Origin: Begonia masoniana | Taxonomy: Eukaryota; Streptophyta; Magnoliopsida; Cucurbitales; Begoniaceae | Assembly: GCA_022432975.1 (NCBI GenBank) | Contig: CM039511.1 | Coordinates: 19,680,557-19,744,556 of the forward strand | Direction: 5' to 3' | Length of the DNA: 64,000 bases | Shown: positions 28,855 to 63,123 of the stretch, one piece after another | Layout: the number at the start of each line of letters is the position of its first letter | How positions within the stretch are numbered: position 1 is the first letter of the stretch | Notes under the pieces: generated by a model | What the model saw: the letters and a program-made list of their open reading frames with translations, nothing else | The model's database searches: none | What the model was told of the DNA's origin: nothing | Program-made: the position numbers and the translations under genes

Positions 28855-28892
28855 TGGTATCAGAGGAAGATGGCTTCGCCAAGCTCTATGAT

Positions 28893-28925
28893 TGTAGTGA
28901 CCCTATCACTGTACCCGATTTTTCC

Positions 28926-28963
<38 letters not shown>

Positions 28964-29395
28964 AATATCCTAATAACTTTAATTGCGTTGAAGCGGAAAT
29001 TTAAAGTGGAAACCAGAATTTGTAAAACGTTCGAATTAATTTTGAAAACCATTTAATAGAATCTTAAAACTATTAAAACAATTAAATAAAAATCATTTAA
29101 ATAAAAGTGAAGCAATCGGCAGAGAACCGGACAAAAACAAGGGCAGAAACGGACAGTCGCCCAAAAAAATGAAGGGGCGATCGATCGCCCAAAACCGGCG
29201 ATCAATCGCCCCAGGTGGATCGCCCCTGGGCGATCATCACATGCCCAACGATCGCCTCAACAGGCGATCGCCTAGACGCAAGTGGCGATCGATCGCCACA
29301 CGCTCTGGAATTCTTCCAGAGCGCGGCGTCCCATGGGCGATCGATCCCCACCCTTGGGCGATCGATCCCCATCTCCTCTGCCTCCCTTCCTTCTT
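28893..29395. repeat. Left inverted arm of the fold-back element
   Basis: Inverse complement of 31000-31543. It shares the AT tract, the aagcggaaatttaaagtgg segment, the gcagagaaccggac segment and the gcgatcgatcgc palindromes. The left arm has a longer AT run, and the right arm has extra gatcgc units. Confidence 0.88.
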
Positions 29396-30601
29396 CACGC
29401 CATTTCCTCTCTCCCTGCGACTTCTCCCTCCTCCGGCGTCCTCAACGGCGATCCTCCATTTCCGGCGATCAACTCCTCCGATCGACTTCCGTTCTCCGTG
29501 TTTTCTTCTCCTCTCGCAACCCTAGGTACGAATCTATGATTTCAGAACGTAAGTTTCCAGTTTTTACGAAGCTAGGACGTTAGGGTTTGTTTAGGGTTTC
29601 GTTAAAAACGCGATTTAGGTTTTGAAATCGATAGGTTTACCTTAGTTATGAACATAATGGACGTATTGAATGTTATTGGACGAAGTTAAATCGATTTAGG
29701 ACGAATATTAGAGATTTTTGTGATTTTCGAGTTTTGGGGGAAAACTCGTAAATGGATGTTTCATAGTATCGAGCGCGTATTGGTTGTGGGAACGCCTCGA
29801 TTAGTTGAGTTATAGCTCTAGGAGAAATTCCTTAGTTAAGGATTTTGCTAGTTTGAGCGTTTAATTGTTTAAGCTCGTTTTAACGACAATTTGGTGAAAT
29901 TGCTTAGGTAAACAACGCTCGTGGACAGAGCTTGGCTTGCAACGGACACGAGGTAAATTCTCGTGATTTTCTCTGGCCGATTGGCCAACACCGTACGTCG
30001 AAGTCGTCTCGAGGAGTTTTGGTGACGCGGATGTTTAAATTGTTTTGGTCGGGTAGTTAAGATTAGTTCTGTATAGGTTATGCTTTTAAATGCTTTATTG
30101 TCTCGATGGCACGAGTCATATATGTTTACTTTCTGTCATATTGAACTGTTCACGCATCACGTGTTTTAAAAGAGCATGAAAATGAATTTTCGCACGATGT
30201 TTTAAAGAAATTGGCGATGTGGCCTGGAGAGAGGCTCGACCTATTGTGGAGATCGACTACGGGTTTGTCACAATACCACATCTAACACGTACTCATACAG
30301 TTATAGGTCATGCGAGATGGGGCTCAGGCACGGCTGTACGTGTTGTAAGCGTGTACCCCCCTCCTCTAGCTGGAAAGAGAGTAATCTGACCGCTGGATGG
30401 GCTCTCTCCAGTTAGGGGGCTGAGATCTCGGTGACACCCACAAAGTAAAGATAAAGAAAATGCTGCACGATTTCTGAACTGATATGCATAGCATGCATTT
30501 ACATTTACTAGAGCTTGCTGAGATTTTTATCTCATAGGTGTCTGTATGGTGTAAGTGACTTCGACATAGGTGAGGACGAGATTCCCCCACCTGAGGAGTG
30601 A
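29282..30601 (+). CDS. Putative spliced small ORF inside the fold-back LTR (111 aa)
   Basis: Predicted exons are 29282-29525, 29908-29952 and 30555-30601, with lengths 244, 45 and 47 (sum 336, 112 codons with stop). The first donor is CTAG|GTACG, the middle acceptor is TTAG|G and the second donor is GAG|GTAAAT. The terminal acceptor is mutated to AA in this copy (AG in LTR-C). The terminal frame ends GEDEIPPPEE, identical to LTR-C. The ATG lies in the inverted arm, so the N-terminus here is newly acquired. The N-terminal part is Arg/Ser/Pro rich and the tail is acidic. No known domain is recognised. Support comes from the conserved layout in six other LTRs, not from homology, and the changed acceptor makes expression of this copy doubtful. 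Confidence 0.35.
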
Positions 30602-30999
30602 TGTAGTTGACGGAGGATGGTCGCGGGGGTGTGCTGGCGCAATCGAGGCGCGTTTTGACTCGTGGGACTCATGGTTAGATGTTTTGAGGGCTTTTGGGAA
30701 TTGTCAGGTTAATGGTTGTATAGAAACATTTTAGGATGCTTGGTTCCGATAGTTGATAGGTTTATGCTCGAGTTTTAAACGTTTTGGAAAACTCGTTTTG
30801 TAAAATGTTTGATAACATGGATATGTTCGGTTTTTAAACATATCCATGCAGTTCGTTTTCATGAAAATATATTTCGTGAGTTGTTATTTGGGTCGGTTGA
30901 AGAAGTGAGGAGTGATGAGATTTTGAGTGAGTTATGTTAGGTTGTATATTTGATGTTTAGTGTAGGGAAGCAGGTAAAGAGAAGGGAAGGTGAATGAGC

Positions 31000-31543
31000 G
31001 AAGAAGAAGGAAGGGAGGCACAGGAGATGGGGATCGATCGCCCAAGGGTGGGGATCGATCACCCATGGGACGCCGCGCTCTGGAAGAATTCCAGAGCGTG
31101 TGGCGATCGATCGCCACAAACGGGCGATCGATCGCCACTTGCGTCTAGGCGATCGCCTGTTGAGGCGATTGCTGGGCATGTGATGATCGCCCAGGGGCGA
31201 TCCACCTGGCGAGCGATCACCAGTGTGCGATCGCCATGGGGCGATCGATCGCCGGTTTTGGGCGATTGATCGCCCCTTCATTTTTTTAGGCGACTGTCCG
31301 TTTCTACCCTTGTTTTTGTCCGGTTCTCTGCCGATTGTTTCACTTTTATTTTATATGATTTTTATTTAATTGTTTTAATAGTTTTAAGATTCTATTAAAT
31401 GGTTTTCAAAATAGATTCGAACGTTTTACAAATTCTGGTTTCCACTTTAAATTTCCGCTTCAACGCAATTAAAGTTATTAGGATATTAAAAAAATATATA
31501 TATATAGTACGGAAAAATCAGGTACAGTGATAGGGTCGCTACA
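31000..31543. repeat. Right inverted arm of the fold-back element
   Basis: Inverse complement of 28893-29395. It corresponds to the natural 3' (U5) end, as shown by its match to the right end of LTR-C at about 45735-45917. Confidence 0.88.
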
Positions 31544-32238
31544 ATGATCCCGTCTTCTCCCTCGACCCAATCTTTTTCTTCCCTCCCTCCCTTCCTTTCC
31601 TTAAACCAAACTCTGACCATTAAACTAGACACCACCAGCTATCTCATGTGGAATACCCAAATCTTCAAATAGCTAGTGGAATCGAAAGTATTCTAGATGG
31701 ATCTCATCCTAACCCACCTCAGTTTCTTGACTCCATCTCCCTTCAACCTAATCCCGACTTCATTGTTCATCAGAGGTACAATAGGCTTGTAATGAATTGG
31801 ATTTTCTCATCCCTCTCCGACAGTCTTCTCCCACAAATCGTTCAATACAATACTGCCAGTGAAATTTGGCATGTTCTCAGCAGTATGTTTGCTTCAACAT
31901 CCTTGGCAAAAATTACAGATCTTCGAAGCCAACTCCATACTTGGGATCTCTGCCGAGGTCTATATTCAGAAAATTGCATCTCTGTGTGACACCTTGTCTG
32001 CCATTGGAGAGCCGGTCTCCTATTGTGATCACGTTCTCTATTTCCTTGGAGTCCTCGGGAGTGAGTACAACGCGTTCGTCACCTCTATCACAAACCGTCC
32101 AGATCAACCCTCTCTTGAAGAGATTCACAATCTTCCATAGAGTTATGATTTTTTGTTGGAAAAGGAAAATGTCGCCTTCTCCCTTCCAACTCTAGCCTCT
32201 CTTTAGGCAAATGCTGCCTTTCGGTCCTTTTCCCGTCC

Positions 32239-34060
32239 TGTAACACCCGGTATTTTTGCCTATGTGATTTCTCCCCGAATCATTATGAGGGATTAATTTG
32301 GTATTAGTACAATGAACGTTTTGTTGGAAACCAAATCGATGGAAATTATATATAGATACATATAAATATGTATATTTGGATAATGGGATAAAAACCAAAC
32401 TAATGTATGAGTGAACGAAACCATTAGTTAGAAATGCATGGAGGGGTAAATTGGGAAGGAATTAAGGTTGGTGGGAGGAAGCCAATGGATGGTTGCCAAA
32501 TGTCCATAACTTGCTGAGAAACCTACCTATTCTCCTCTCTTCTACGTGAACCTTCACACTCATCCCTTCCTCTCTGTTTCCTCTCTTCCAGACGAAAATC
32601 ATCCATCGAAGCACCTTCGATCTTCCTTGATTTTTCTTCTGTTTCTGCATAAGGTAAGCATCTGCTTATGCTAACATGTCTGGACAAGTTAAATGACAGT
32701 TTTGTTGAAGTTTAGGGTTTGTGATATTTTGGAGAAAACTCACTGCTATTGCATGAAAACATGTTGGTTTGTTTTCTAAAAACCTGAATGGAGTTAGGAG
32801 CATATCCTACAAGTTATTAGTTAGCATTTGCAGCTTGTTTATTTTCCTTACGTGTATGTACAGGTTCGTGCATTACCGAGACGATCAAGAACATCAACTC
32901 TACAACAAACAGGTAAGTTCATACCCGTAGGTTGGCCCTCAAGGCCCTACATCACAGAGATACTAGGTATTACTTATGTCGGGTGGTTTCAGGTAGAGGA
33001 AGTTAAAGTTAAGTTCTGAGTTATCTATGTCACACATTACGTTCTGTTGTAATATTTCTGTTGTCTGCCATTTTATGTTTAAGCACTGTAAATTCTCATG
33101 CATACACGATTTTCCCGAAAGACATGCAAAAGTTTTCTGTGCACGGTTTTGAAGTTAAGAAAGATAAAATCTGACTGTAATGTATTGGTTAAGTGCGGGA
33201 CAGGGACTGGCCTACTGTTTTGTACAGCTTTGTCTGTTCTGTTCTGTTTCTGTTCTGTAAATCTGTTATGTGCCTGTCGTGCACTTGTCAGTTCCCCTAA
33301 AAGCCCCACTTATACCCCTCTGACAGATAAAAACAATGTTTTGTAATGTCACTGTATTCTGAAAAGTTCATGTATAGCATATGCATCACTGCATTTATAT
33401 GTTCTTATTGAGTTTTAGACTCATAGATGAGCTCTCTGATGTAGGTACTGAAACCGTGGATGAGGACTTTGTGCCTCAATATGACGATTTGATGTAGTTG
33501 GCGGATCGAGCTCATAGGGGTTGGTTGCTGCAGCCAGACATATTTCTGTCCCGAGATTTAAGTTTTTTTTTTTTGTAAAGTCCATGTCTGTAAACCCTAC
33601 TGGAACTCTGGTGTTTTTGTTTTAAAACTCTGTTGGGGTTCTGTGTTTTTGTTTTAAAAACTCTATTGGAAATTCTGTTGGGAATATAAGATGTATAGGT
33701 TCTGATGTTCGAGTTTGAAATCTCTGTTTGACAGTCGATAGTTGTCTCCTGAAATATTCTGTTGTTGATGTATTTAAAACCTCTGTATTTGACAGTTAAA
33801 TTTATGTTCTGAAGTATTCTGGAATTGTTTGGAATATTTTTTATTATAGGGTGTGTATGGGTTATTTCTGATTTTAGAGCCATCCATGCAATCTGTTTTC
33901 CTTAAATTTCTGTCGTGTTTTCCTGGTATGTCCAAGATCATATTTTAAATCATTTTCTGAAGCTTGAAGCTTCCATACCTTCTGTTTTCATGTTTCTGTC
34001 TCCATGTATTCCTGTCAAAAGTTGTCAATTTCTGCCTTTAAAACTACATCGCCCCCCAGT
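32239..34060 (+). mobile_element. LTR-A: Gypsy-type LTR, right end lost
   Basis: It begins TGTAACACCCGG directly after Copia-3 gag sequence. In plus orientation it shows the shared LTR layout. A leader ends at the donor AAG|GTAAGC (32653/32654). A 49-nt middle block lies at 32864-32912 (acceptor ACAG, donor ACAG|GTAAGT). A 53-nt terminal block at 33445-33497 has the frame DVGTETVDEDFVPQYDDLM and a TAG stop. Middle and terminal blocks join in an open frame, but no ATG is found in frame in the leader. The right boundary is not recognisable. It fades into satellite-flanking sequence around 33960-34150, where it meets an LTR of opposite orientation. Confidence 0.75.
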
Positions 34061-34149
34061 TTATCCATATCCACCGCTGCTTTAAATTCACTTCTACAGC
34101 TGCCCGTTCTAAAAATCACATCCACCGCTACTTGTAGAATCATATCCCT

Positions 34150-37100
34150 GACTCATTAAACTTCATCCGATCACAAAACGACAAGACTTAATATCGGCTT
34201 CTACCGATTGACACATGCACATCACGTGACTCATTAAACTTCATCCGATCACAAAACGACAAGACTTAATATCGGCTTCTACCGATTGACACATGCACAT
34301 CACGTGACTCATTAAACTTCATCCGATCACAAAACGACAAGACTTAATATCGGCTTCTACCGATTGACACATGCACATCACGTGACTCATTAAACTTCAT
34401 CCGATCACAAAACGACAAGACTTAATATCGGCTTCTACCGATTGACACATGCACATCACGTGACTCATTAAACTTCATCCGATCACAAAACGACAAGACT
34501 TAATATCGGCTTCTACCGATTGACACATGCACATCACGTGACTCATTAAACTTCATCCGATCACAAAACGACAAGACTTAATATCGGCTTCTACCGATTG
34601 ACACATGCACATCACGTGACTCATTAAACTTCATCCGATCACAAAACGACAAGACTTAATATCGGCTTCTACCGATTGACACATGCACATCACGTGACTC
34701 ATTAAACTTCATCCGATCACAAAACGACAAGACTTAATATCGGCTTCTACCGATTGACACATGCACATCACGTGACTCATTAAACTTCATCCGATCACAA
34801 AACGACAAGACTTAATATCGGCTTCTACCGATTGACACATGCACATCACGTGACTCATTAAACTTCATCCGATCACAAAACGACAAGACTTAATATCGGC
34901 TTCTACCGATTGACACATGCACATCACGTGACTCATTAAACTTCATCCGATCACAAAACGACAAGACTTAATATCGGCTTCTACCGATTGACACATGCAC
35001 ATCACGTGACTCATTAAACTTCATCCGATCACAAAACGACAAGACTTAATATCGGCTTCTACCGATTGACACATGCACATCACGTGACTCATTAAACTTC
35101 ATCCGATCACAAAACGACAAGACTTAATATCGGCTTCTACCGATTGACACATGCACATCACGTGACTCATTAAACTTCATCCGATCACAAAACGACAAGA
35201 CTTAATATCGGCTTCTACCGATTGACACATGCACATCACGTGACTCATTAAACTTCATCCGATCACAAAACGACAAGACTTAATATCGGCTTCTACCGAT
35301 TGACACATGCACATCACGTGACTCATTAAACTTCATCCGATCACAAAACGACAAGACTTAATATCGGCTTCTACCGATTGACACATGCACATCACGTGAC
35401 TCATTAAACTTCATCCGATCACAAAACGACAAGACTTAATATCGGCTTCTACCGATTGACACATGCACATCACGTGACTCATTAAACTTCATCCGATCAC
35501 AAAACGACAAGACTTAATATCGGCTTCTACCGATTGACACATGCACATCACGTGACTCATTAAACTTCATCCGATCACAAAACGACAAGACTTAATATCG
35601 GCTTCTACCGATTGACACATGCACATCACGTGACTCATTAAACTTCATCCGATCACAAAACGACAAGACTTAATATCGGCTTCTACCGATTGACACATGC
35701 ACATCACGTGACTCATTAAACTTCATCCGATCACAAAACGACAAGACTTAATATCGGCTTCTACCGATTGACACATGCACATCACGTGACTCATTAAACT
35801 TCATCCGATCACAAAACGACAAGACTTAATATCGGCTTCTACCGATTGACACATGCACATCACGTGACTCATTAAACTTCATCCGATCACAAAACGACAA
35901 GACTTAATATCGGCTTCTACCGATTGACACATGCACATCACGTGACTCATTAAACTTCATCCGATCACAAAACGACAAGACTTAATATCGGCTTCTACCG
36001 ATTGACACATGCACATCACGTGACTCATTAAACTTCATCCGATCACAAAACGACAAGACTTAATATCGGCTTCTACCGATTGACACATGCACATCACGTG
36101 ACTCATTAAACTTCATCCGATCACAAAACGACAAGACTTAATATCGGCTTCTACCGATTGACACATGCACATCACGTGACTCATTAAACTTCATCCGATC
36201 ACAAAACGACAAGACTTAATATCGGCTTCTACCGATTGACACATGCACATCACGTGACTCATTAAACTTCATCCGATCACAAAACGACAAGACTTAATAT
36301 CGGCTTCTACCGATTGACACATGCACATCACGTGACTCATTAAACTTCATCCGATCACAAAACGACAAGACTTAATATCGGCTTCTACCGATTGACACAT
36401 GCACATCACGTGACTCATTAAACTTCATCCGATCACAAAACGACAAGACTTAATATCGGCTTCTACCGATTGACACATGCACATCACGTGACTCATTAAA
36501 CTTCATCCGATCACAAAACGACAAGACTTAATATCGGCTTCTACCGATTGACACATGCACATCACGTGACTCATTAAACTTCATCCGATCACAAAACGAC
36601 AAGACTTAATATCGGCTTCTACCGATTGACACATGCACATCACGTGACTCATTAAACTTCATCCGATCACAAAACGACAAGACTTAATATCGGCTTCTAC
36701 CGATTGACACATGCACATCACGTGACTCATTAAACTTCATCCGATCACAAAACGACAAGACTTAATATCGGCTTCTACCGATTGACACATGCACATCACG
36801 TGACTCATTAAACTTCATCCGATCACAAAACGACAAGACTTAATATCGGCTTCTACCGATTGACACATGCACATCACGTGACTCATTAAACTTCATCCGA
36901 TCACAAAACGACAAGACTTAATATCGGCTTCTACCGATTGACACATGCACATCACGTGACTCATTAAACTTCATCCGATCACAAAACGACAAGACTTAAT
37001 ATCGGCTTCTACCGATTGACACATGCACATCACGTGACTCATTAAACTTCATCCGATCACAAAACGACAAGACTTAATATCGGCTTCTACCGATTGACAC

Positions 37101-37659
37101 ATGCACATCACGTGACTCATTAAACTTCATCCGATCACAAAACGACAAGACTTAATATCGGCTTCTACCGATTGACACATGCACATCACGTGACTCATTA
37201 AACTTCATCCGATCACAAAACGACAAGACTTAATATCGGCTTCTACCGATTGACACATGCACATCACGTGACTCATTAAACTTCATCCGATCACAAAACG
37301 ACAAGACTTAATATCGGCTTCTACCGATTGACACATGCACATCACGTGACTCATTAAACTTCATCCGATCACAAAACGACAAGACTTAATATCGGCTTCT
37401 ACCGATTGACACATGCACATCACGTGACTCATTAAACTTCATCCGATCACAAAACGACAAGACTTAATATCGGCTTCTACCGATTGACACATGCACATCA
37501 CGTGACTCATTAAACTTCATCCGATCACAAAACAACAAGACTTAATATCGGCTTCTACCGATTGACACATGCACATCACGTGACTCATTAAACTTCATCC
37601 GATCACAAAACGACAAGACTTAATATCAACTTCTACCGATTGACACATGCACATCACGT
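34150..37659. repeat. 78-bp satellite, 45 tandem copies
   Basis: The period is exactly 78 bp. Units start at 34150 and every 78 bp after, giving 45 complete units, followed by a degenerate unit from 37660. Units are essentially identical. The only changes I noticed are in the last two (aaacaacaag near 37533, atatcaac near 37627). Each unit carries cttcatccgatcac, aaaacgacaag and acatcacgtgactcat, the last combining a CACGTG G-box with an overlapping TGACTCA motif. No ORF spans it. It lies inside the Tekay 3' LTR. Confidence 0.97.
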
Positions 37660-37682
37660 GACTCATTATACTCCTTCCGATA

Positions 37683-37838
37683 GAAGACATCATCCGATAA
37701 AAGACATCATGCAATGGAAGACATCATCCGATGGAAGACATCATCTGATAGAAGACATCATCCGATGAAAGACATCATCCGATGGAAGACATCATCCGAT
37801 GGAAGACATCATCATATGGAAGACATCATCCGATAGAC
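37683..37838. repeat. 17-bp minisatellite (about 9 copies)
   Basis: Units of the type gaagacatcatccgatg recur with period 17 from 37685 (agacat at 37685, 37702, 37719, 37736 and on). Related units occur at about 30-bp spacing in the solo LTR at 21085-21270. Confidence 0.9.
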
Positions 37839-39110
37839 AGGAAACTTTCAGACTTTCACAAACTTCAACATGATTGAATAAACTAACACACAGTTGGACC
37901 ATAATCTCATCTAGAATACGTGTAGCGAAAGACTCTAACAAAACAGATCATTCTATCATTTCACGATCATTCTCAAACTCAGAAGTTAGTCAGTCAGGTT
38001 CCAGTATCCATTGTTTTAAGAAAGCATCCTACATAGACTTCAGTATTCATAACCTTACTAATATGATAAAAGTAGTAACCAGGAGTTGAAATCGCCTTTC
38101 CAGCCACCAATCTGTCATCCTGAGCACCTTCCAGCAACCAACCTTAAACATCCTCATTAGACTTGAAATCCTCACCTGGTAGTTCTTCACCTACATCATA
38201 AGGTTTAAACTATAAGCCTAATGCTTAGTAAGGAGTGCAATGCTAACATGTATGCATGAATGTACAAATTAAAGGAAAACACATGTTCATGATCTTTTCG
38301 TGTTCTTGTTCTTGTTCATGATCATCGTTTTCATCATATGGATTAAGGGAGGATTTGTGCCGAAAAGGGGGTTGACAGTGAGAGTGTACATAGTCCCTTG
38401 CGGGTCGTATTCATGGTCCTTCTTTTGGACAGTGACATACGCCAAACTGCCCTCAACCCTCTCTTAATCCTTGTTGCATAAGTTTCATGTTCATATCTTG
38501 TTCATGGGAGAAATCATGCATTTAAAACATTTTCATATGCTTGAGAAATATTCATGATGCATGAGCATGAGTAATCTTAGTTCATCAGACTACTGAACAA
38601 GCCATTCATTCATCAAAGGATCATAACATCAACTCGAGTACCGAAGACATCCAGACATTAGCACAGGTACTTTTAACATCATAAACAACTTCTACTTAGT
38701 ACCCTTGAGATGTAGGGCCCTAATGACCGGAAGTCTTACTCACTCACTTACCAGGTTTCCTTAGCAACTTGAGCACGTCTCTTCAAACTTCTTCACCTAG
38801 AAACATTTCACATTATAGTGTTAAATCAAAATCCTAACTAAAAGTCATCCTAGTATCTAACATAAATATTTCTAAATCTTCCTAGTCGAGCGCCTAGTGT
38901 GTACAGATTAAATTTCCAGAACCTAAATAACCGGATTAAGTCTAACAACTAAACACGGTCTGTTATCTTAATGTCCAGAATTGAATCGGAAATGCCATTA
39001 CTAAACACAGATCATGATTGTCACAACCATTACTCTGTTAGTGAAGAATCAGAAACCTCAAGTTCTAGCTGAAGACAAAGTTCTAAGTAACTACATTGTC
39101 TAAATCTTAC
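37839..39110 (-). other. Tekay LTR middle part without genes
   Basis: This is non-coding LTR sequence apart from the exon-like blocks at 38144-38190 and 38752-38796. The conserved stem (ggattaagggagg pairing with cctctcttaatcc) lies between them. Confidence 0.6.
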
Positions 39111-39474
39111 CTAGAGCGTGGATTGTCGAAGTGGAGGCTGAAGAACTGGTCGCCGGCGAAGGAATAGCTGGCAGAGAGGGAGCTCTGGAAGGAAGGAAAT
39201 CACCGAGAGAGGAAATGTTGGCTACAACGAGGTTTTAATGAGGTTTAAGAATTCCCACAACCTATTTATACCAATTAAAATCCACCTTAATTACAAACTT
39301 GCCACCCAACCTAGTTTCACTCAACTTGTAATAAATAAGTCTTGGCATTAAATTTAAAATCGTAAAGGTCAATAAAAGGGTGACAATTAAAATGGTTAAG
39401 AAAATCACCTGGCCGAAATTGTCGGGTGTTACATCCACCCCTCCTTAAACAAAATTTTCGTCCTCGAAAATTGA

Positions 39475-42400
39475 TCAAACAAAGAGCTCTGGATAATTGG
39501 AAATCATGTCCTGCTGTCGCTCCCATGTGGCTTCTTCAATGTCATGATTTGTTCACAGAACTTTCACTAATGGGATCTCTTTATTCCGTAGAGTCTTAAC
39601 TACAGATTCCAAAATTCGTATAGGTTTATCTTCATACGTTAATGTCGGCTCAAACTCAATTTCCGTTGGCTTAACAACCTGTGACGGATCATGTATGCAT
39701 TTCCTTAGCATGGATACATGAAAGACATTATGGACCTTTTCCAGTGAAGGAGGCAATTGCAACCTATAAGCTATGCTGCCAATCCCTGTTAAGACAGGGA
39801 AGGGACCAATGAATCGTGGACTAAGTTTTTCCTTCTTGCCAAATCTTAAAACTCCCTTAAATGGTGAAACATTTAAGAAGACCTCATCACCGACAGCAAA
39901 CTCAAGATCCCTTATTCTTTGGTCTGCATAACTCTTCTGTCGGCTTTGTGCAGTCATCATCCTTTTCCTAATTATGGCAATCTTGTCTGACATCTGCTGT
40001 AAAATTTCAGGGCCTAGAAGTTTTGCTTCGCCAACTTCATCCCAATATAAGGGTGATCTACATTTCCTACCATATAGGGCCTCGTAAGGTGCCATACCGA
40101 TAGTGGACTAGTAACTATTGTTGTAGGAGAATTCCACTAAGGGTAGGTATCGATTCCAAGATGTCTGAAAATCCAGCACATACGCCCTCAACATATCCTC
40201 AAGTGTCTGAATTGTTCTCTCCGATTGGCCATTTGTCTGAGGATGAAAAGCAGTGCTGAAAGATAACTTTGTACCAAGCGTGCCTTAAAGACTTTGCCAA
40301 AACTTCGAGGTGAACCTAGGATCACGATTGGAGACAATGGATATTGGAATCCCATGCAATCTGATAATTTCCTGAACATACAGATTAGCAAGCTGGTCCA
40401 TCGTGTACGTTGTCCTTACAGGTAGAAAGTGAGCTGATTTCGTCATTCTGTCAATTACGACCCAAATGCTATCATGACCTTTAGTTGTCTTAGGTAATCC
40501 TACAACAAAATCCATGGCAATGTTTTCCCACTTCCATTCGGGAATCGGTAAGGGTTGAAGGGTACCTCTTGGACGTTGATGTTCTGCTTTAACTTGTTGG
40601 CATATCAGACATGATTCCACATACTTGGCAACATCCCTCTTCAAATTCGGCCACCAATAGAGTAACTTCAAGTCCCGATACATCTTGGTGCTGCCAGGAT
40701 GTACAGAAAAGGGAGACGAGTGTGCCTCGGCCAAGATCAACTTACGTAATTCCTCATCACTTGGAATGTACCATCGATTCCTAAATTTCAAAATATCATC
40801 CTTGGAGAGACTGAACTCAGAAGAGGCGTCCTTCAACTTACTCATCATGCTCTTATTTTCCTTTGATTCTTTTTGTTGTGCCTTCTTAATCCTATCCAAG
40901 ATAGTTGGTTGAATGGTTACTTCTGCAAGTAGTTCCGACAGCTCATAAACTATTTCCAACTCGAACTTCTGTACTTCTGTCCTCAAAGGTATAGACATGG
41001 TTGACACCGCGGGCTGCATTGTCGTCGACATCCTGCTTAAAGCATCGGCTACAACATTAGCCTTACCTGGGTGATACTTAATTTCAAAGTCATAATCCTT
41101 AACAAACTCTAACCAACGTCTTTGTTTCATGTTCAACTCCTTTTGAGTAAAAAGGTATTTCAGGCTCTTATGGTTAGAAAACACTTCACACTGTTGACCA
41201 TACAAATAGTGTCTCCAAATCTTTAATGCAAAGACAACTGCGGCTAATTCCAAATCTTGAGTGGGGTAGTTCTGCTCATAACTCTTCAGTTGTCTGGAAG
41301 CATACGCTACAACCTTACCTTCTTGCATCAAGACACACCCCAGACCGACTTTGGATGCATCATAATAAACACTGAACTTCCCTTCTTCAGTTGGGAGTGC
41401 CAAAAGAGGGGCTGTTGTCAACTTCAGTTTTAGTGTTTGGAAGCTATCTTCACAAGGTTCATACCAAGAGTATTTGGTGTCTTTCTTTGTCAAATTAGTT
41501 AAAGGCTTAGCTATCATAGAGAATCTCTTAATGAACTTCCTATAATAACCTGCCAGACCAAGGAAACTACAGACCTCGCTGGCGTTCCTTGACTGTGGCC
41601 AGTCCTTAACAGCCTGAATCTTGGTTGGGTCTACGGATATGCCCTCAGTAGAGATGACATGACCTAAAAAGTTGACCTTATCTAACCAGAACTCACATTT
41701 GGACAACTTGGCATAGAGCTGCTATTGATTTAAAGTCGCCAAAACCACTCTTAGGTGTTCTTCATGGTCAGCCTTAGTCCGTGAATATATTAAGATATCA
41801 TCAATAAACACAATCACAAACTTATCCAAGTACTCACGAAACACTCGATTCATCAAGTCCATAAAGGCTGCAGGTGCATTTGTCAGTCCAAACGACATCA
41901 CAAGAAATTCATAGTGTCCATAGCGGCTTCTGAAGGCTGTCTTTAGTATATCTCCCTCCTTAACCTTCAGTTGGTAATAACCTGAACGTAAGTCGATCTT
42001 TGAAAACACTTTGGCTCCTTGAAGTTGGTCAAACAAATCGTCGATACGGGGCAAGGGATATCTATTCTTGATTGTCAACTTGTTTAACTCTCTGTAATCA
42101 ATGCACATTCTAAGAGAACCATCTTTCTTCTTAACGAATAGGACAGGTGCACCCCAGGGAGAACAGCTGGGGAGTATAAATTCCTTGTCTACTAATTCCT
42201 GTAGTTGGACCTTCAATTCCTTCAACTCAACAGGTGCCATGCGGTAGGGGTTCTTAGACACAGGTAAAGCCTCGGGATATGTATCGATTACAAACTCGAT
42301 TTCCCTATCAGGTAGTAGCCCAAGCAAGTCGTCCAAAAATGCATCTGGGAACTCTCGGACTATGGGAATATCCTGAAGTTCTACCTTACTCTTTACTCGG

Positions 42401-42644
42401 ACATCAATTATACTAGCTAGATAATTCTCACAACCACCTTTCAGTAACCGTTGAGTCTCTAGCGAGGATATAACTGGTATTTTACTTATTTTTGGAATAG
42501 CTTAGAAGGAGTACCGATCTCCGTTTGGGGGTCGAAACTCAACCAATCCAGACCTACAACTTATCGTGGCATAATGTCTGAATAACCAATCCATCCCTAG
42601 TATAACTTCATATCCCTTCATGTCAATTACGATCAGTTCTGCTG
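39475..42644 (-). pseudogene. Tekay pol (protease end, RT, RNase H, integrase, chromodomain) with stop codons
   Basis: One frame runs through the region, broken by stops but not by frameshifts. Visible on the minus strand are the protease end (VILGMDWLFRHYATISC), reverse transcriptase ([29 protein letters not shown]), RNase H ([21 protein letters not shown]), integrase zinc finger ([12 protein letters not shown] with CLIC), catalytic core ([12 protein letters not shown]), GPY/F region, and a chromodomain-like tail (NHDIEEATWE). Stops lie near 42507, 41719, 40285, 40112 and 39555. Several fall at positions normally Gln or Trp, as C-to-T or G-to-A changes. Gag is not present. Confidence 0.9.
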
Positions 42645-42649
42645 CATCA

Positions 42650-45600
42650 TGTAGCACCCGGATTTATGAGATTTTTGTAATATATGTGAATAATGGCATT
42701 TTAGTAATTATGTCGAATTAAGTAGGTTCCGTGAAAAGAAAGCGTTATTACGATCTTAATAATTAATATGAATTTTAAGAAAATTTTGGGAATTTTAGGA
42801 GTTTAACGCTAATTTTACGAGAATTACATTTCTCATAATATAAAGGACGTTGTGGTAAAAATAGTAAACGAGATCCGAATTGTGAACGGACAGTTTCAAT
42901 AGAACCCTAGTAGTAAGTTGAAATAATTGGTGAAATAAGAAATTTTGGAGAAACCGAATCGTTAGCTAAATAACGAAACAAAGGACAAAACAAATAGAAA
43001 ATCAAAGGAAGGGCAAAACGGTCATTTGACAAGTTAAATGTTTAATAAAATCACAATTTTCTCTCCCTCACCAGACATTCCACGAACTCTCTCTCTCTCC
43101 CTCTGCGAACCCCCTACTATTTCTCTCCTCTCATTGGCGTTTCTCCTCTCCGTCGACGATTCGTCCTTCGATCGCTTCATTTTCTTTGTGTTTTCTCCTC
43201 CAAACGACATTTTAGGTAAGGTTCTACAATTTTAGAAAGTTTATTCGTAGTTTTCGGGTCATTTAACGGTTAGGATTTCGTTTAGGGTTTCGTTAAAAAT
43301 GTGATTTAGGGTTTGAAATCGATAGGCTTACCGTAGTTGTGAATGTAATGGAAGTATCGAGCGTTATTGGACGAAGTTAAATGGATTCGTGAGAAATTTT
43401 AGGGTTAGAGAAATTTAGGGGTTTTGGAAAAACTCGTTAATGGTGGTTTCGAGGTATCGAGCGTTAATTGTTGTTAAAATGTCTCGATTAGTTAAGTTAG
43501 AAGTTTGGAAATTTCCTTAGTTAAGGATTTCGTTAATTTGGACGTCAATGGTTCAAACTCGTTTTAGCGACAAATATTGTGAATTTGCTTAGGTAAACGA
43601 TGCTAATGGATGGAGCTCGAAGTTCAACGCGCACGAGGTAAGTTTTCGTGACTTACTGTGGCCGATTGGCCTACACCATATGTCAGAAATCGTGTTGAGG
43701 ATACGTTGGTGCTTAATTGTTTATGTTGGTCATTGTTTTGTCTAGTTGTTTCGGTTGGGTAGTTTAGGTTCGGTTGCTTTATAGGTTGATTGCTGTGACG
43801 GTATTTGTAGTGTTTTGATGGTATTTGTAGCGTTTTGATGGTATGCTCTTTATGTATGTTTATATTAAACTGTTCATGCATCATGGTTTCAAAACGTCAT
43901 GAAAATGAATTTAAGCATTGATTTTATGAAAAGAACATGCATTATAAAGGCAAGTAAAGTATCACAGTAAACAACCATGACATGGGGTTATCGGGGATGA
44001 GGTTCAGATCTAGCGTTCTGTGGTGAGCGAGTTTTCCTCCCTTCAGATGGTGTGGGCTGTCTATTCGCTTGACGTGCCCTATCTATCTGTCGAGCGTTTT
44101 CGATCACCATAGACTGACACATAGTGATATATGAAATGACATGGACGGTTTTTATAGCATTGAACATACATGATCATGCAAAGGCATTTACGTAGAATTT
44201 ACTGAGATTTTTATCTCATAGGTGTTTTTATGGTGTAGGTGACATTGAGCAAGGTGAGGACGAGATCCCTCCACCTGAGGAATGATGCAGTTGAGGGAGA
44301 ATGGCCCGTTGGAGTGCGCTGGACAGTCGATGCGCCTTTTGCCCCGTGGGGAAGTAAATGTATGTAAGTATTTTGGGGATACGATAGACAGATCGTATGA
44401 GAAATTGTATAGATTGAACATATTAGGATGTTTGAGATCTGATTAGTGGATAGGTTTATGTTTAAGATTTTTAAACGTTTTGGAAACTTATTTTATAAAC
44501 TGCTTGGTGATTTAAAACAGGAGGAAATGTTTAGTTTTTAAATGGATCCATTGTAACGACCCCTTATCCCAGCAAGATATTGTCCGCTCTGGGGATTGGG
44601 CCGTAGCCCAATATCCTCCTCTCACGGCTTTGCTTGGCGAGAACTTCCCAGAAGGTCACCCAACCTGGAATTGCTCTCGCCGAAGCACTTTTAACTTCGG
44701 AGTTCTTATGGGATCCGTTATCAATTGTGCTCCAAAATGCGTCTTGCTATGTTGGGAGGGTCTCTTTACATATTTTTTATTTCCACATACTTCCCCAAGC
44801 GACGTGGGATTGTAACGACCCCCTTTTTACGACCCGTCACCTTCCGGTTCCCCCGCGCAGACGTACCGCCATCTGGGTTCCAGTTCGTGCAGCCATCGTA
44901 CCATACTTATACATCCGGGTCATCACAATCACCCCCCCTCGGGGGCCCAACGTCCTCGTTGGCCACATTTCTGGTTGGGTACAGACTCTGATACCATTTG
45001 TAACGACCCCTTATCCCAGCAAGATATTGTCCGCTCTAGGGATTGGGCCGTATCCCAATATCCTCCCCTCATGGCTTTGTTTGGCGAGAACTTTCCGGAA
45101 GGTCACCCAACCTGGAATTGCTCTCGCCGAAGCACTTTTAACTTCGGAGTTCTTATGGGATCCATTGCCAATTGTGCTCCAAAACGCGTCTTGCTATGTT
45201 GAGAGGGTCTCTTTAGATATGTTTCATTTCCACATACTTCCTCAAGCGATGTGGGATTGTGACAACCCCATTTTTACGACCCGTCACCTTCCGGTTCGCC
45301 CGCGTAGACGTACCGCCATCCGAGTTCCGGTTCGTGCAGCCATCGTACCATACTTACACATCCGGGTCATCACATCCATGCAGTTCGTTTTCATGAAAAT
45401 TGATTTCGTGTTAAATATGTTTTGAGTCGGTTTTGTTGTGTGTAATTGCAATGTGCAGGAAGTCTGGAAGGAAGGGGAAAAAAACTAAATGTGGGGCGAT
45501 TGAACGCCTAAGGATAGGTGTTCGAATGCTGAACTCTCTGGAAAAACAGAGAGTTATGTGATTGTTCGCCAAGGGAGGGGCGAATAATCGGTTTGTAGGT

Positions 45601-45917
45601 TCAGCAACACGTTCTAGAAACAGAACGTGAGCCGATCGATTGGCTGTCTTCAGCCGATCGATCGGTTATGTGAGGGGCGATCAATCGCCCATTGAGGGGC
45701 CGATCGATCGCCCCCCTTTGTTTTCCACGGCTTGACGTTTTTGCCCCTCAAATTGTTGGCCAATGTTTTAAATTGTTCTATGGTTTTAATATAATTTGTT
45801 TTCTATAGTTTTTATAAGTAGATTTAAATGGTTTTCAAATCCCGAATGATTTTAACGATCTAATTTCCGCTTAAGCATTATAAAGTATACCTAAGGATAA
45901 TAAAAAAATATATATAT
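42650..45917 (+). mobile_element. LTR-C: Gypsy-type LTR inserted in Tekay protease, right end deleted
   Basis: It begins TGTAGCACCCGG after a possible target duplicate catca (42645-42649). In plus orientation a leader ORF (ATG 43038) ends at the donor TTTAG|GTAAGG (43215). The middle block is 43593-43637 (45 nt). The terminal block is 44239-44285 (47 nt), frame GDIEQGEDEIPPPEE then TGA. Leader, middle and terminal frames agree in phase, but the middle block has a TAA, so this copy is broken. A TRIM (44552-45374) sits in its 3' part. Its end matches the right arm of the fold-back element up to an AT run, and the last tens of bases with the terminal CA are missing. Confidence 0.8.
44552..45374 (-). 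mobile_element. TRIM element 1 (823 bp), target duplication tccat
   Basis: Two 376-bp terminal direct repeats (44552-44927 and 44999-45374) enclose only 71 bp (44928-44998). Read on the minus strand, each repeat runs from TGTGATGACCC to GGGTCGTTACA. The 71-bp middle has a primer site (TGGTATCAGAGTC) at one end and a polypurine tract (GAGGGGGGGTGAT) at the other. Perfect tccat duplicates flank it (44547-44551 and 45375-45379). This is the exact architecture of a terminal-repeat retrotransposon in miniature. It encodes nothing, so mobility would depend on proteins from another element. Confidence 0.93.
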
Positions 45918-45922
45918 ACAAA

Positions 45923-47523
45923 AATATGGGCCACACTGCCCCTTTCTGCTATCACCGCTTGGACACCTCCTATAGGCCTCAGTCCCCAGTCCCCAGTCCA
46001 AACCCATTTTCCCTCTTTGGCTCAGGTTCGTACGACCGGTCTTCTACTGTCTCCACTCGCCTTTGCTCCAGCTGCGGAGTGGACATTAGACTCCAGAGCC
46101 ACTCACAATTTCACTCCTCTTTCCTCGCTGCTGCATCATCCCAATCCTTACGCTGGCTCCACTCAAGTTATCACTGTCAATGGTAAGTCTGTCCCTATTC
46201 ACAATTTTGGCTCGGTTACTCTTCCTGCTTTTAGCCATCCTATTCTCTTAATGAATGTTTTTCATAACTCTCATCTTACTCATAATTTACTCTCTGTAAA
46301 TCAATTGTGTCGTGAGAACTTAGTTTATGTTAAATTTCATTCACACTTCTTTCTTGTTAAGAATCAGAGTTCTCACCAAGTTGTTCTCCGAGGTTCCCTC
46401 CATAATGGGATGTACCAGACCCCTCCTAGCTGTGGCATTGTCGTCTCGGCCATCCATCCTTCCCTATTTTGAAAACTGTTTTGGAGTCCTGTAATATTAC
46501 ATATTTTAAGAACAGTATACCAAAATTTTATACAGCTTGTCAAATGGGCAAGCAACATCAATTGCCTTTTAAAATTTCAAATTCTCATGCTCTGTCACCT
46601 TTTGATCTTGTACACACAGATGTTTAGGGTCCTTTCCCTGTTAATTCCATTTATGGTGTTCGATATTTTGTCTTGTTTATTGATAATTGTACACGTTTCA
46701 CTTAGCTTTACTGTTTAAAAGTAAAGAGTGAAGTTCAAAATACTTTGTGCAATTTCATAACCTCGTTCAAACTCAATTTGGTCAAAAAATCAAAGTCATC
46801 CAATCTGATGGAGGTGGTGAATTCCAATCTCTTTCAAATGTCTTTAAATCTCTTGAATTTATCACTGAATCTTATGTCTGTACACTCCCAATCAAAATAG
46901 ACGAGTAGAGCGAAAAAATGGTCATGTTATCGAAACCGGGCTTGCTATTCTCTTTCATTTGTCTGTTCCTCAAAAGTCCTGGCCTTATGTCTTTTCTACT
47001 GCCACTACTTTAATAAATCTTTTACCTACCCCAGTTTTGAAGCATAAATCTCCTTTCAAATGCTTATTCCATTCTCCTCCTCCATTTTCCACTCTTCGTG
47101 TTTTTGGTTGCCTATGTTTTCCTTTTCTTCGTCCTTTTATCCGTCATAAATTGCAAGCTCATTCTCTTCCTTGTGTTTTCTTAGGTTATAGTCCTCATCA
47201 TAAAGGATATTATTGTCTTGACCATATTTCAAATAAAATTTACATTACTCGTCATGTTACCTTTGATAAATCCATTTTTCCTTTCTTTTCAGTCTCATCC
47301 TCACCCTTATCACAACCCCCTCTCTCTGTTTCGATTGTCACCCCCTTAATTCCCTCCTCTTCCCTCTCACCTCACCACCCACCATCACCCTTTTCCTCTT
47401 CCACTCAAATATCTCCCGTTGAAAATCCCTCCCCTCCTCTATTAACTAACAATAATACCAACGTGAGCTGGCAGATACTTACCATAAATAATCATGCAAT
47501 GAGAACTAGATCCAAGGTTGGCA
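45923..47523 (+). pseudogene. Copia-3 protease and integrase segment
   Basis: Starts in the second half of a CCHC knuckle (GHTAPFC), then protease EWTLDSRATHNFT, where the catalytic DSG triad reads DSR. GAG-pre-integrase and integrase core follow with several stops (46490-46930). An open C-terminal integrase region lies at 46959-47520 (VFGCLCFPFLRP, CVFLGYSPHHKGY). It stops at 47528 in RSKVGIF and resumes at 50798 with KPKA in the same frame. Confidence 0.88.
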
Positions 47524-47528
47524 TCTTC

Positions 47529-50500
47529 TGTAACACCCGACAACTTCGGACAGGTGAACTTTCTTTAAGGTAAACGGTATTAACTGCCACCTCTATATTT
47601 ATGTATTTCTTTGGTCGGAAATTTAGGCACCAAAGTTTAATTCGTTCTTTTTATAAAAATTAGGTTTGGTGGCAAACTTGTAATTAAGCCTGGCTCATTA
47701 AGTGTATAAATAGAAAATGAAAATCCTAAAACCTCACAAAAACCTCCACCAGCCGACTTTTTTCTTTCAGCCGACTCTCTCCCCTCAGCTCCCTTCTCTG
47801 TTCTTCCTCCAGCGATCAACTTCCTTTGGATTTCTTCCGATACTCCAAGCTCGAGGTAAGATTTGGACAATGTGCTTACTGATTAGTCATTTGAGAGTTG
47901 ATTAGAGATTTAGATTCGGGTTTTCTGAGGAAGTTGAAGTATCATGGTAGATATAGCTATTAACATAGCATTTATGATTGTTGTAGATAATAAGTAGAAA
48001 TAATGAATGTTGGCTGAGCCTGGGTAGTTGGTGAACCCGAACGCCATTATCGTTTAGCTGAGGTTTTTATGCACACTAGTACTCGAATGGAAATGAGTTA
48101 CACTTCTAGGATATATACTTAGTTAGAAAGCTACCATTCTGGAATATTAGACTACTTAAGATTTGTTTTCTTACATTAATACGTGAAATGACTTAGGTTG
48201 GAAAAAGCTCCAAGTGAAGGAAAGACATTGCTAAGGAATCCAGGTAAGTGAGTGTGTTAAGTTTCCGGCTATTAGAGCCCTACATCACAAGGGTAGTAGG
48301 GTGAGTTTGTTTCTGGTATTCAATGATGTTTGGGAAGATTGTCTGTTTCAGTATAATGTTTGGAATAGTGTATGCTCTGTTTTCTGATGAACGACTCCTT
48401 CCATGGTCTCATGTTTTGAGAATGTTTATGTCCATGCATCATGATTTTTTTACCAAGTATACAAAATATTTTACACGCATACTCCTTTATGAATGAACCA
48501 AGAAAACGAAACGTATGAAACCTTGATTAAGTGAGGGTTGGGGGTGGTATTGGCAATTTCACTGTCCAGGAATGGACCATGTGTAACGACCCCGTTACCC
48601 AGCAAGATATTGTCCGCTCTGGGGATTGGGCCGTAGCCCAATATCCTCCCCTCACGGCTTTGTTTGGCAAGAACTTCCCAGAAGGTCACCCAACCTGGAA
48701 TTGCTCTCGCCGAAGCACTTTTGACTTCAGAGTTCTTATGGGATCCGTTGCCAATTGTGCTCCAAAACGCGTCTGGCTATGTTGGGAGGGTCTCTTTACA
48801 TATGTTTCATTTCTATATACTTCCCCAAGCGATATGAGATTGTGATGACCCCCTCTTTACGACCCGGGATTCGCCTATACTCGAGTCCGGGATTCGCCTA
48901 CACTCGGCTTAGGTCCCGAGGTTTGTCCCGCAACCTGAGATTTGCCCCGCAGTCGTACTCATACGTGCACATTCGGATCATCACAATCACCCCCCCTCGG
49001 GGGCCCAACGTCCTTGTTGGCCACATTTCCGGTTGGATACAGGCTTTGATACCATTTGTAACGACCCCGTTACCCAGCAACATATTGTCTGCTCTGGGGA
49101 TTGGGCCGTAGCCCAATATCCTCCCTTCATGGCTTTGTTTGGCAAGAACTTCCCAGAAGGTCACCCAACCTGGAATTGCTCTCGCCGAAGCACTTTTAAC
49201 TTCGGAGTTCTTATTGGATCCGTTGCCAATTGTGCTCCAAAACGCGTCTTGCTATGTTGGGAGGGTCTCTTTACATATGTTTTATTTCCATATACTTTCC
49301 CAAGCGATGTGAGATTGTGACGACCCCCTCTTTACGACCCGGGATTCGCCTATACTCGAGTCCGGGATTCGCCTACACTCGGCTTAGGTCCCGAGGTTTG
49401 CCCCGCAACTCGAGGTTTGCCCCGCAGTCGTACTTATACGTGCACATTCGGATCATCACACCATGATTCTTGCCAGTAAAGGGCCATGTACACGCACTCT
49501 GCCTACCCCCCTTCGGCACAAACTCCTCCCTAATCCATGATATGAAAACAATGAACAAGAATATGATTCCCACGATTTGAAAGTGAATGTGAACACAAGC
49601 ATGATTCCCGATTTGAGTAAAAGACGTAAACATGATTTTTATGTAGCATTCATGTGTTTGTTGCACTCTTTACTAAGCATTAGGCTTATAGTTTGAACCT
49701 TATGATGTAGGTGACGAAACAGCAGGTAAAGACTTCAGTCTAGAAGGAAATGCCTAGGTCTGGTTGCTGGTTGCTGCTCATGGTGATGATTTGTGACTGT
49801 GAAGCAATTTTTAACCCGCGGAGTGTTACTTTCAGTACGATTTAGTAAGATCTATGATATGACTGCGTGAATGGGAAATGAATTTCTTTATGTTAACAGA
49901 TATTTGACTTATTAAGTACGAGTTTAAGTTTAAGAAGGTTCCAGATTTAAGATTCTTCTCTATGTGATAAGTCTTCCGCTATGAACTTAAGTTAAGGATT
50001 ATGTGGTCTATGTGTATGGGGATTTTTGGAAAAATGGAGTTATGTTTTTAAGAAGAAGGAGGGAATGATTTGAAGTCTCAACTTGATCAATAATCGGTAG
50101 AGGTTAGGTTACCGTTGGGCAGTGGATGCTGGATGATTGAGTCGTCCGGCTGACGTCATCGGTGGATGCGTTCTGTGAATGTGAGCGGTAGATGTCGTCT
50201 GACGAGTTAATGAAGTCACGTGGGTAACACGTGGTCTGACCGGTGGATGTTGAGTGTTATTGTTCACCGGTGGATGTTGTGCGTTTATGATGATCGGTGG
50301 ATGCTGGATGAATGTGTCATCCGGCAAACGTCACCGGAAGATGTTGAGTACTGTTGAGCGGTGGATGTCGCTCGAAAGAAATGACCAATGGATACTGGGT
50401 GATTGAGTCATCCGGCTGACGTCATCGATAGATGTGGGTTATTACTGTTGAGCGGTGGATGTCGCTTGACAGAAATGACCGGTGGATGCTGGGTGAATGA

Positions 50501-50792
50501 GTCACCCGGCTGATGTCATCGGTAGATGTGAGATATTACTGTTGAGCAGTGGATGATGCTCGACAGAAATGAGCGGTGGATGTGAACGACAGAGGTCAAT
50601 TCGATTGTCTGTTGATTCTTTTCTTTAAATAAATATTTCCCCAAATGATTTTAAATAACTTCAAATCTGATTGCAATTTCTTTAAAAACGTATTTATACA
50701 TATACAAAAAAAAAAGAAGAATTGGGTTGACATTTTGATTACGAATATGATTATACGATATTCTCGACCTGTCGGGTTTTCGGGTTGTGACA
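47529..50792 (+). mobile_element. Solo Tekay-type LTR (3264 bp with TRIM), target duplication tcttc/tcttt
   Basis: It starts TGTAACACCCGAC and ends CGGGTTGTGACA. Tcttc (47524-47528) and tcttt (50793-50797) flank it. It has TATA box GTATAAATAG (47703-47712) and leader donor CGAG|GTAAGA (47855/47856). The middle block is 48197-48243 (47 nt) and the terminal block is 49711-49757 (47 nt, frame GDETAGKDFSLEGNA then TAG). The joined blocks are open, but no in-frame ATG is seen in the leader. TRIM 2 is nested at 48582-49460. The 3' part (50100-50600) is filled with irregular ggtggatgt / gctgacgtcatcgg repeats. It is closely related to the Tekay 3' LTR ending at 39433. Confidence 0.9.
48582..49460 (-). 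mobile_element. TRIM element 2 (879 bp), target duplication ccatg
   Basis: Two 404-bp terminal repeats (48582-48985 and 49057-49460) flank a 71-bp middle (48986-49056) with the same primer site and polypurine tract as TRIM 1. Ccatg flanks both sides (48577-48581 and 49461-49465). The terminal repeats differ from those of TRIM 1 mainly in the segment after the gtgrcgaccccc motif, where this copy has a gggattcgcctayactcg duplication. Confidence 0.93.
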
Positions 50793-62500: not shown

Positions 62501-63123
62501 TTTTACATCTTCCGGTCGCTAAACGACAAAACATATTTTACATCTTCCGGTCGCTAAACGACAAAACATATTTTACATCTTCCGGTCGCTAAACGACAAA
62601 ACATATTTTACATCTTCCGGTCGCTAAACGACAAAACATATTTTACATCTTCCGGTCGCTAAACGACAAAACATATTTTACATCTTCCGGTCGCTAAACG
62701 ACAAAACATATTTTACATCTTCCGGTCGCTAAACGACAAAACATATTTTACATCTTCCGGTCGCTAAACGACAAAACATATTTTACATCTTCCGGTCGCT
62801 AAACGACAAAACATATTTTACATCTTCCGGTCGCTAAACGACAAAACATATTTTACATCTTCCGGTCGCTAAACGACAAAACATATTTTACATCTTCCGG
62901 TCGCTAAACGACAAAACATATTTTACATCTTCCGGTCGCTAAACGACAAAACATATTTTACATCTTCCGGTCGCTAAACGACTCACTTTACACTTGTGCA
63001 TTTAGTTATATTTCTTGTCATTTTCTTCTTTTCATCTTCAGTTTTGACAACACTTCCACCCGAGCACCTTTTTGAATATTTTGTGGGTTATACAAGGACC
63101 CTTTTCTAAGGGATTTCGTGTCA
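59518..63123 (+). repeat. LTR-like block ending at a primer site and containing a satellite
   Basis: The right end is supported: ...gatttcgtgtca followed two bases later by TGGTATCAGAG (63126). A TATA-like box (cctatttaag) lies at about 59978, consistent with plus orientation. The left end is a guess (tgttgggttgaagaatt at 59518). If correct, the block is 3.6 kb, of which 2.5 kb is the 35-bp array. Open frames near 59690-60090 are GC-richer but overlap on both strands and have no domain. Confidence 0.45.
60482..62982. repeat. 35-bp satellite, 71 full tandem copies
   Basis: The period is exactly 35 bp. Units begin ccggtcgctaaacgac at 60482, and the last, partial unit begins at 62967. (62967-60482)/35 is 71. 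I noticed no sequence variant between units. The unit shares the aaacgacaa core with the 78-bp satellite and with irregular repeats in the solo LTRs. Confidence 0.97.

Follow-up and report, generated by a model that had tools for sequence, protein, structure and literature searches.

Probable exons of a spliced gag leader and a covarying RNA helix in long Tekay-like LTRs of Begonia masoniana

Seven homologous LTRs with a three-block layout

We analyzed a 64,000-nucleotide stretch of Begonia masoniana DNA (assembly GCA_022432975.1, contig CM039511.1, forward-strand positions 19,680,557 to 19,744,556; hereafter the window), which holds seven long terminal repeats (LTRs) of retrotransposons: a (6711-8711), b (20528-22688), the fold-back copy fb (28893-31543), A (32239-34060), T (the LTR reaching to 39433), C (42650-45917) and D (47529-50792). 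Each carries conserved blocks with splice-like borders, and these blocks are probably exons of a spliced leader that precedes gag, with a conserved RNA helix at one splice site. From the sequences we infer the splicing itself, every junction, which sites join and the role of the helix; what we observe are the strengths of the sites, a donor and acceptor context that three families share upstream of gag, the ATG counts and the covarying pairs.

The seven LTRs are homologous: a profile built from their terminal regions matches them at E values of 2e-38 to 3e-32 and, within the window, finds those seven only above threshold. Alignments of the sister pairs (a/b, T/D and fb/C) reach 64-67%, and because the copies are homologous they are not independent; they amount to about four lineages (ab, TD, fbC and A). 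TG...CA ends and 5-bp target duplications, as in Ty3/gypsy LTR retrotransposons, are present, the duplications being exact for a (CAAAG/CAAAG) and fb (ATGAT/ATGAT) and matching at four of five bases for b and D, as read from the printed flanks. The right ends first assigned to LTRs A and C lack a terminal CA and were not confirmed. LTR T adjoins reverse transcriptase, RNase H, integrase zinc-binding and SH3 sequence, and, pooled over several elements, the content comprises sites resembling a primer-binding site (PBS), gag, protease, reverse transcriptase, RNase H and integrase. Ty3/gypsy LTR retrotransposons with long LTRs, apparently Tekay-like, are the best explanation of these elements. The Tekay label follows the name used in the first-pass annotation, an earlier description made from the sequence letters. 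A Pfam scan of 39553-40107 returned SH3_Tf2-1 only and no chromodomain, in a stretch that may end before one.

That annotation had described a leader, a middle block and a terminal block in every LTR. We set all 28 block boundaries by anchor words drawn from its layout and re-located them in all seven copies, with the junctions 29525/29908, 29952/30555, 47855/48197 and 48243/49711 recovered exactly. The middle block, our putative exon 2, measures 50 nt in a (8187-8236), 49 nt in b (22155-22203), 45 nt in fb (29908-29952), 49 nt in A (32864-32912), 45 nt in T (38752-38796), 45 nt in C (43593-43637) and 47 nt in D (48197-48243); a, b and T are read on the minus strand and the others on the plus strand. 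In b the introns would begin at 22426 after donor 1 and at 22154 after donor 2. The terminal block runs 47 nt to an in-frame stop in six LTRs (a 7654-7700, b 21594-21640, fb 30555-30601, T 38144-38190, C 44239-44285, D 49711-49757) and 53 nt in A (33445-33497), where a sense codon aligns with the stop of the other copies and the frame closes two codons further on. Each of the 14 exons starts with GT, and the codon at the junction of the two blocks is G|GT in 7/7, as described. The claimed conservation across seven LTRs is real as a layout, although homology reduces the number of witnesses to it.

Splice-site strength and the path to gag

Scored with approximate dicot splice weights, donor 2 ranks first among the 85-151 GT sites of each of the seven LTRs (1 of 85 in b), while donor 1 falls at ranks 2-4, acceptor 2 within ranks 1-6 in six of the seven and acceptor 1 at ranks 3-68. 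A further donor, AG|GTGAGGA with variants, lies inside the terminal block 15 or 18 nt from its start and ranks 2-8 in six LTRs (a 7682, fb 30570, T 38175, C 44254 and D 49726; in b its intron would begin at 21622). Read in the frame of the first-pass annotation, AG|GTGAGGAY spells Gly-Glu-Asp, much of the 'acidic' motif described there, and this motif looks like, for the most part, a donor signal read in frame. Recursive splicing, an idea suggested by the GT at all exon starts, was set aside: as donors these sites rank 3-50, and it is not needed.

Genome searches with families b, T and C gave 2447, 4395 and 4570 first-look candidates; per family, 40 were scored and the 30 best fetched, and the resulting 90 copies include the window's own three. 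A PBS match lies downstream in 19 of the 90 fetched loci, of which one (L035) ends before the next donor and another (L056) is without a convincing PBS, leaving 17 for use. In these 17 copies a fourth donor, ACT|GTAAG or ATT|GTAAG, a motif that the search script required, stands 80-86 nt past the PBS start, an acceptor-like site follows about 60-66 nt past this donor and reads AG in 13/17, and an ATG lies 10-13 nt past the acceptor-like site, except in L078 (29 nt). The ATG of L095 (T family) is the start of a Retrotrans_gag frame, behind which protease follows, and L076, fetched by the C query, resembles family b in its post-PBS stretch. Ranked over the whole leader in eight PBS-bearing copies, donor 2 comes out on top, alone or tied, the terminal block's inner donor takes ranks 2-4 and donor 4 only ranks 8-16; the acceptor before gag is first in all three T copies and seventh or lower in five b and C copies. 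Individual copies depart from the pattern, with AT at donor 2 in L047, AC at acceptor 2 in L075 and two sites missing in L091. As a separate observation, the gag start codon of three T-family copies (L036, L053 and L062) overlaps a donor-like ATG|GTAAGAGG of rank 3-4.

We estimated the start site as the TATA-like motif plus 32 nt and measured the leader to the ATG after the acceptor. Unspliced, it spans 2002-2604 nt and holds 56-108 ATGs in 17/17 copies. Joining exon 1 and exon 2 to a long terminal exon that runs to donor 4 would leave 24-68 ATGs; a path from exon 1 through exon 2 and a micro-exon to gag would leave none in six and one in two of the eight b- and T-family copies. This short path would be 166 nt with no ATG in L012 and L015 and 198 nt with no ATG in L036, L047 and L053; it keeps none in L014 and one in L021, both poorly mapped, and one in L062. 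Intron 2 is ATG-rich: 4763 nt of it hold 168 ATGs where 118 are expected. The last 110 nt of exon 1 are free of ATG in all seven LTRs, and exon 2 has none in six.

A covarying RNA fold at intron 2

As read from the sequences, a covarying helix, P1, joins the start of intron 2 to acceptor 2 and is accompanied by a covarying hairpin; this fold is a new finding of the analysis. The P1 5' arm, which was found by looking for complementarity, lies 28-35 nt after donor 2 and is complementary to acceptor 2, with a longest exact match of 15, 9, 8, 9, 9 and 11 nt in a, b, T, D, A and C; the longest match of fb lies elsewhere. In a common register 11-15 of the 15 pairs form: 15 in a (5' arm 8144-8158, 3' arm 7700-7714), 13 in A (32946-32960 and 33431-33445) and in D (48279-48293 and 49697-49711), 12 in T (38702-38716 and 38190-38204) and in C (43670-43684 and 44225-44239), and 11 in fb (29985-29999 and 30541-30555). 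In b the 5' arm (22112-22126) stands 28 nt after donor 2 and the 3' arm (21640-21654) spans acceptor 2.

Over the P1 alignment 86.7% of cells are paired, a level reached by 3/500 shuffles, and 30-58% are paired when one arm is slid by 1-3 positions. Nine cells are changed on both sides against 4.2 in shuffles (2/500), and the covariation score is 0.267 against 0.161 (0/500). RNA folding, from which D was left out, gives P1 a probability near 1 in a, b (0.98-0.99) and C (first 11 pairs), and 21 of the 30 genome copies of family b keep the 15-bp helix intact. The hairpin, 20-37 nt upstream of acceptor 2, forms 5/5 pairs in all seven LTRs (a 7722-7736, b 21662-21676, fb 30519-30534, A 33409-33423, T 38213-38227, C 44203-44218, D 49674-49688); it shows three pair types at two positions, and among 24 exchanges of its arms between the four lineages the true order alone does as well. 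The two ends of intron 2 complement each other better than random windows of the same LTR do (fraction 0.002-0.052 over the seven), and the ends of intron 1 show no such complementarity in a, b, A, fb and C, with 8 nt in T and D. CTTAC:GTAGG is a candidate for a local alternative helix.

A spliced leader weighed against other readings

The proposed mechanism begins with a transcript that would start near the LTR 5' end, so placed that an ATG-crowded leader of 2.0-2.6 kb precedes gag. A CT-rich exon 1, estimated at about 90-350 nt, would be joined to exon 2 of 45-50 nt, then to a micro-exon of 15-18 nt formed by the start of the terminal block and ending at the third donor, and finally to the last acceptor, 10-13 nt upstream of the gag ATG. 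This short path would drop the ATG-rich introns, the remaining U5 and the PBS, and gag could then be reached by scanning. Because splicing along it would delete LTR sequence and the PBS, RNA for reverse transcription must stay unspliced, and one transcript would have two fates, unspliced for reverse transcription and spliced for gag. The helix at acceptor 2 most likely tunes the removal of intron 2, and hence the balance between mRNA and genome; to the fourth donor, past the PBS, we assign no firm role in the splicing path. A bolder proposal, which we regard as possible yet doubtful, is that a structured LTR intron serves as a genome/mRNA switch across a whole group of plant gypsy elements: the long-range helix would sequester the acceptor and mark unspliced RNA for packaging, and its opening would yield a short, nearly ATG-free gag mRNA.

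Several observations weigh against a spliced, structured leader. The splice weights are approximate, and the donor-4 motif was a requirement of the script that found it. The acceptor before gag is not AG in 4/17 copies, acceptor 2 of fb is AA, as the first-pass annotation had noticed, LTR A is without a strong inner donor, and the corresponding open reading frame (ORF) of L094 (b family) has no Pfam match. Along the short path the nine C-set copies keep 0-4 ATGs; donor 1 is poorly matched in seven of them, and the two well-matched ones, L075 and L078, hold 1 and 3. ATGs in exons 1-2 are as frequent as dinucleotides predict (0 against 2.4 expected, and 3 against 2.9), and we rejected exon ATG depletion as a signal of selection, the scarcity being no more than composition gives; the splicing argument therefore rests on the ATG-rich introns. 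For P1, the number of pairs changed on both sides (5 against 3.3; 63/500 shuffles) and of pair types (9 against 9.5; 390/500) is not above shuffles, 3 of 24 exchanges of arms among the four lineages do as well, and the duplex energies of A and fb do not fall below those of shuffles. Folding predicts other structures than P1 in A, fb and T, giving it at most 0.20, 0.1 and 0 respectively. Sunflower Tekay elements are reported to be absent from a set of highly expressed elements (PMC7730604).

To the same side belongs part of the evidence on the first-pass proposal that the blocks, once joined, code for a small spliced protein whose tail is acidic, a reading that now appears very unlikely. Four LTRs (b, fb, A and D) have no stop in the middle-block part of the joined frame, the terminal frame stops at codon 15 in six of the seven, and the same-codon stop recurs in 86 of the 90 genome copies, which are best matches (b 28/30, T 30/30, C 28/30). 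Among the three window pairs, a comparison that left out A, which has no sister, third positions take 22/43 differences (binomial P 0.012, simulation 0.003, random aligned control windows 0.0012), an excess that the splice-signal reading leaves unexplained; amino-acid similarity lies above simulation (P 0.01), synonymous codons changed in 7/28 (P 0.08) and kept stops reach P 0.06 in the same simulation. Against a protein stands the start codon: an in-frame ATG is present in fb and C, as claimed, and lacking from the joined frame in the other five (a, b, A, T and D). Skipping exon 2 gives D an ATG, but this lies 12 nt after the start of the TATA-like motif and thus upstream of a likely start site. 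The middle block, 45-50 nt, differs by 1 or 2 nt, and so not by whole codons, in two of the three sister pairs (a/b 50/49, T/D 45/47), and its joined frame is stopped in three copies (a, T and C) where two had been counted. The check that the first-pass annotation had itself named as a refuting one, a comparison of many copies, goes against the protein: over the 90 copies variants fall at codon positions 1/2/3 as 23/18/16 (9/6/3 for those seen in at least two copies), without third-position bias. This check is not final, since many of these variants may postdate insertion. No homologue of the joined fb product turned up in a database search, and the Gly-Glu-Asp of the tail coincides with the donor AG|GTGAGGAY. 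A small protein-coding gene would call for a start codon, which five of the seven joined frames lack, and for codon-level constraint, which the 90 copies do not show, the third-position excess between window pairs being contrary. From the original proposal, then, the spliced layout is supported, by the donor ranks, the further donor and the acceptor before gag, and the protein is not.

An RNA element of the unspliced transcript, with helix, hairpin and intron 2 acting in packaging, dimerization or ribosome shunting and the splice-like sites unused, is unlikely, if less so than a protein. It would suit the covariation of helix and hairpin and the ATG-rich intron 2, since shunted leaders are ATG-rich. 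Against it stand the strongest donor of every LTR, beside the helix, and an acceptor-like site directly upstream of gag; by eye, moreover, the stretch from donor 2 to the 5' arm is free of ATG in T, D and A, hence no short ORF lies there to feed a shunt. Very unlikely, to our mind, is an unspliced ORF that reads through the supposed acceptor 2 into the acidic frame: from an ATG it gives 39 amino acids in a and b and 38 in A, finishing in the acidic tail, and the residues LLS-x-R-LIDE-x-x-DV are common to all three, but in T and D a stop lies 6 codons upstream, C and fb lack the ATG, the numerous ATGs of introns 1 and 2 precede the frame, and its part upstream of the acceptor carries covarying pairs. 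We give equally little credence to shared ancestry alone, in which the blocks would be non-coding LTR sequence without function. The homology of the seven LTRs speaks for it; the compensatory changes speak against it, as do minor letters, which are fewer in the 45 nt before acceptor 2 than in 45 nt past the block (15/25, 19/55 and 20/78 in the three families). Within the block itself they number 30, 19 and 41.

According to a recent review, introns are generally lacking from plant LTR elements, Ogre and EVADE being among the exceptions (PMC12786077), and in the literature that we searched we found no report of introns inside LTRs of this group. BARE, a Ty1/copia element of barley, keeps separate RNA pools for translation and replication (PMC3735527); it resembles the spliced leader proposed here in that spliced RNA serves translation and the replicating RNA must escape splicing, and differs in splicing within the gag-pol coding sequence, whereas the putative introns here lie in the LTR leader before gag. 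BARE uses two promoters. Ogre, of the Ty3/gypsy Tat group, is likewise a plant gypsy element with partly spliced transcripts, but the putative introns here lie in the 5' leader (PMC6317226). In HIV-1, leader RNA structure masks a splice signal and balances spliced and unspliced RNA, and base-pair covariation was likewise sought as support (PMC4974535); there a local hairpin masks the 5' splice site, whereas here the 3' splice site would pair with an intron start about 430-1430 nt away. The additional ORFs of plant LTR retrotransposons are akin to the extra coding capacity first proposed for these LTRs, but they lie in the internal region, mostly between pol and the 3' LTR (PMC7264820).

Dozens of ATGs precede gag in these LTRs, and how such elements translate gag is an open question, which a conserved multi-exon leader with a covarying fold at the acceptor would answer if it is real. 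Solo LTRs would then supply exons and splice sites, already formed, wherever they insert. The 'small ORFs' of LTRs can be splice signals read in frame, a warning for their annotation.

Beyond these subjects the window holds several further features. LTR fb (28888-31548) is a solo LTR flanked by the duplication ATGAT, whose ends are mutually inverted copies (84%), and it interrupts sequence that resembles, by eye, the start of a copia gag frame. Gypsy reverse transcriptase sequences 70-90% like those of the window (protein matches P0004, P0015 and P0022) are filed on short contigs under the bacterial assemblies Parablautia muri, bacterium c-19 and Staphylococcus aureus, and are probably plant contamination. 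A reverse transcriptase search and two sequence patterns gave no match among viral contigs, and pattern matches in three bacterial contigs (L001-L003) were taken as chance. Nested insertions, each with two 5S ribosomal RNA matches, lie at about 44551-45374 in LTR C and 48585-49460 in intron 2 of D; an Rfam search returned no other described RNA family, and for LTR b alone nothing at gathering score. These insertions look like Cassandra elements, which the literature links with 5S ribosomal RNA. Two tandem arrays complete the inventory: one at 34149-37681, with a 78 bp unit in 45.3 copies (99% matches), and one at 60481-62982, with a 35 bp unit in 71.5 copies (100% matches). The latter is about 62% like the 3'-side repeats of LTR b and could be part of an eighth LTR that extends past the window.

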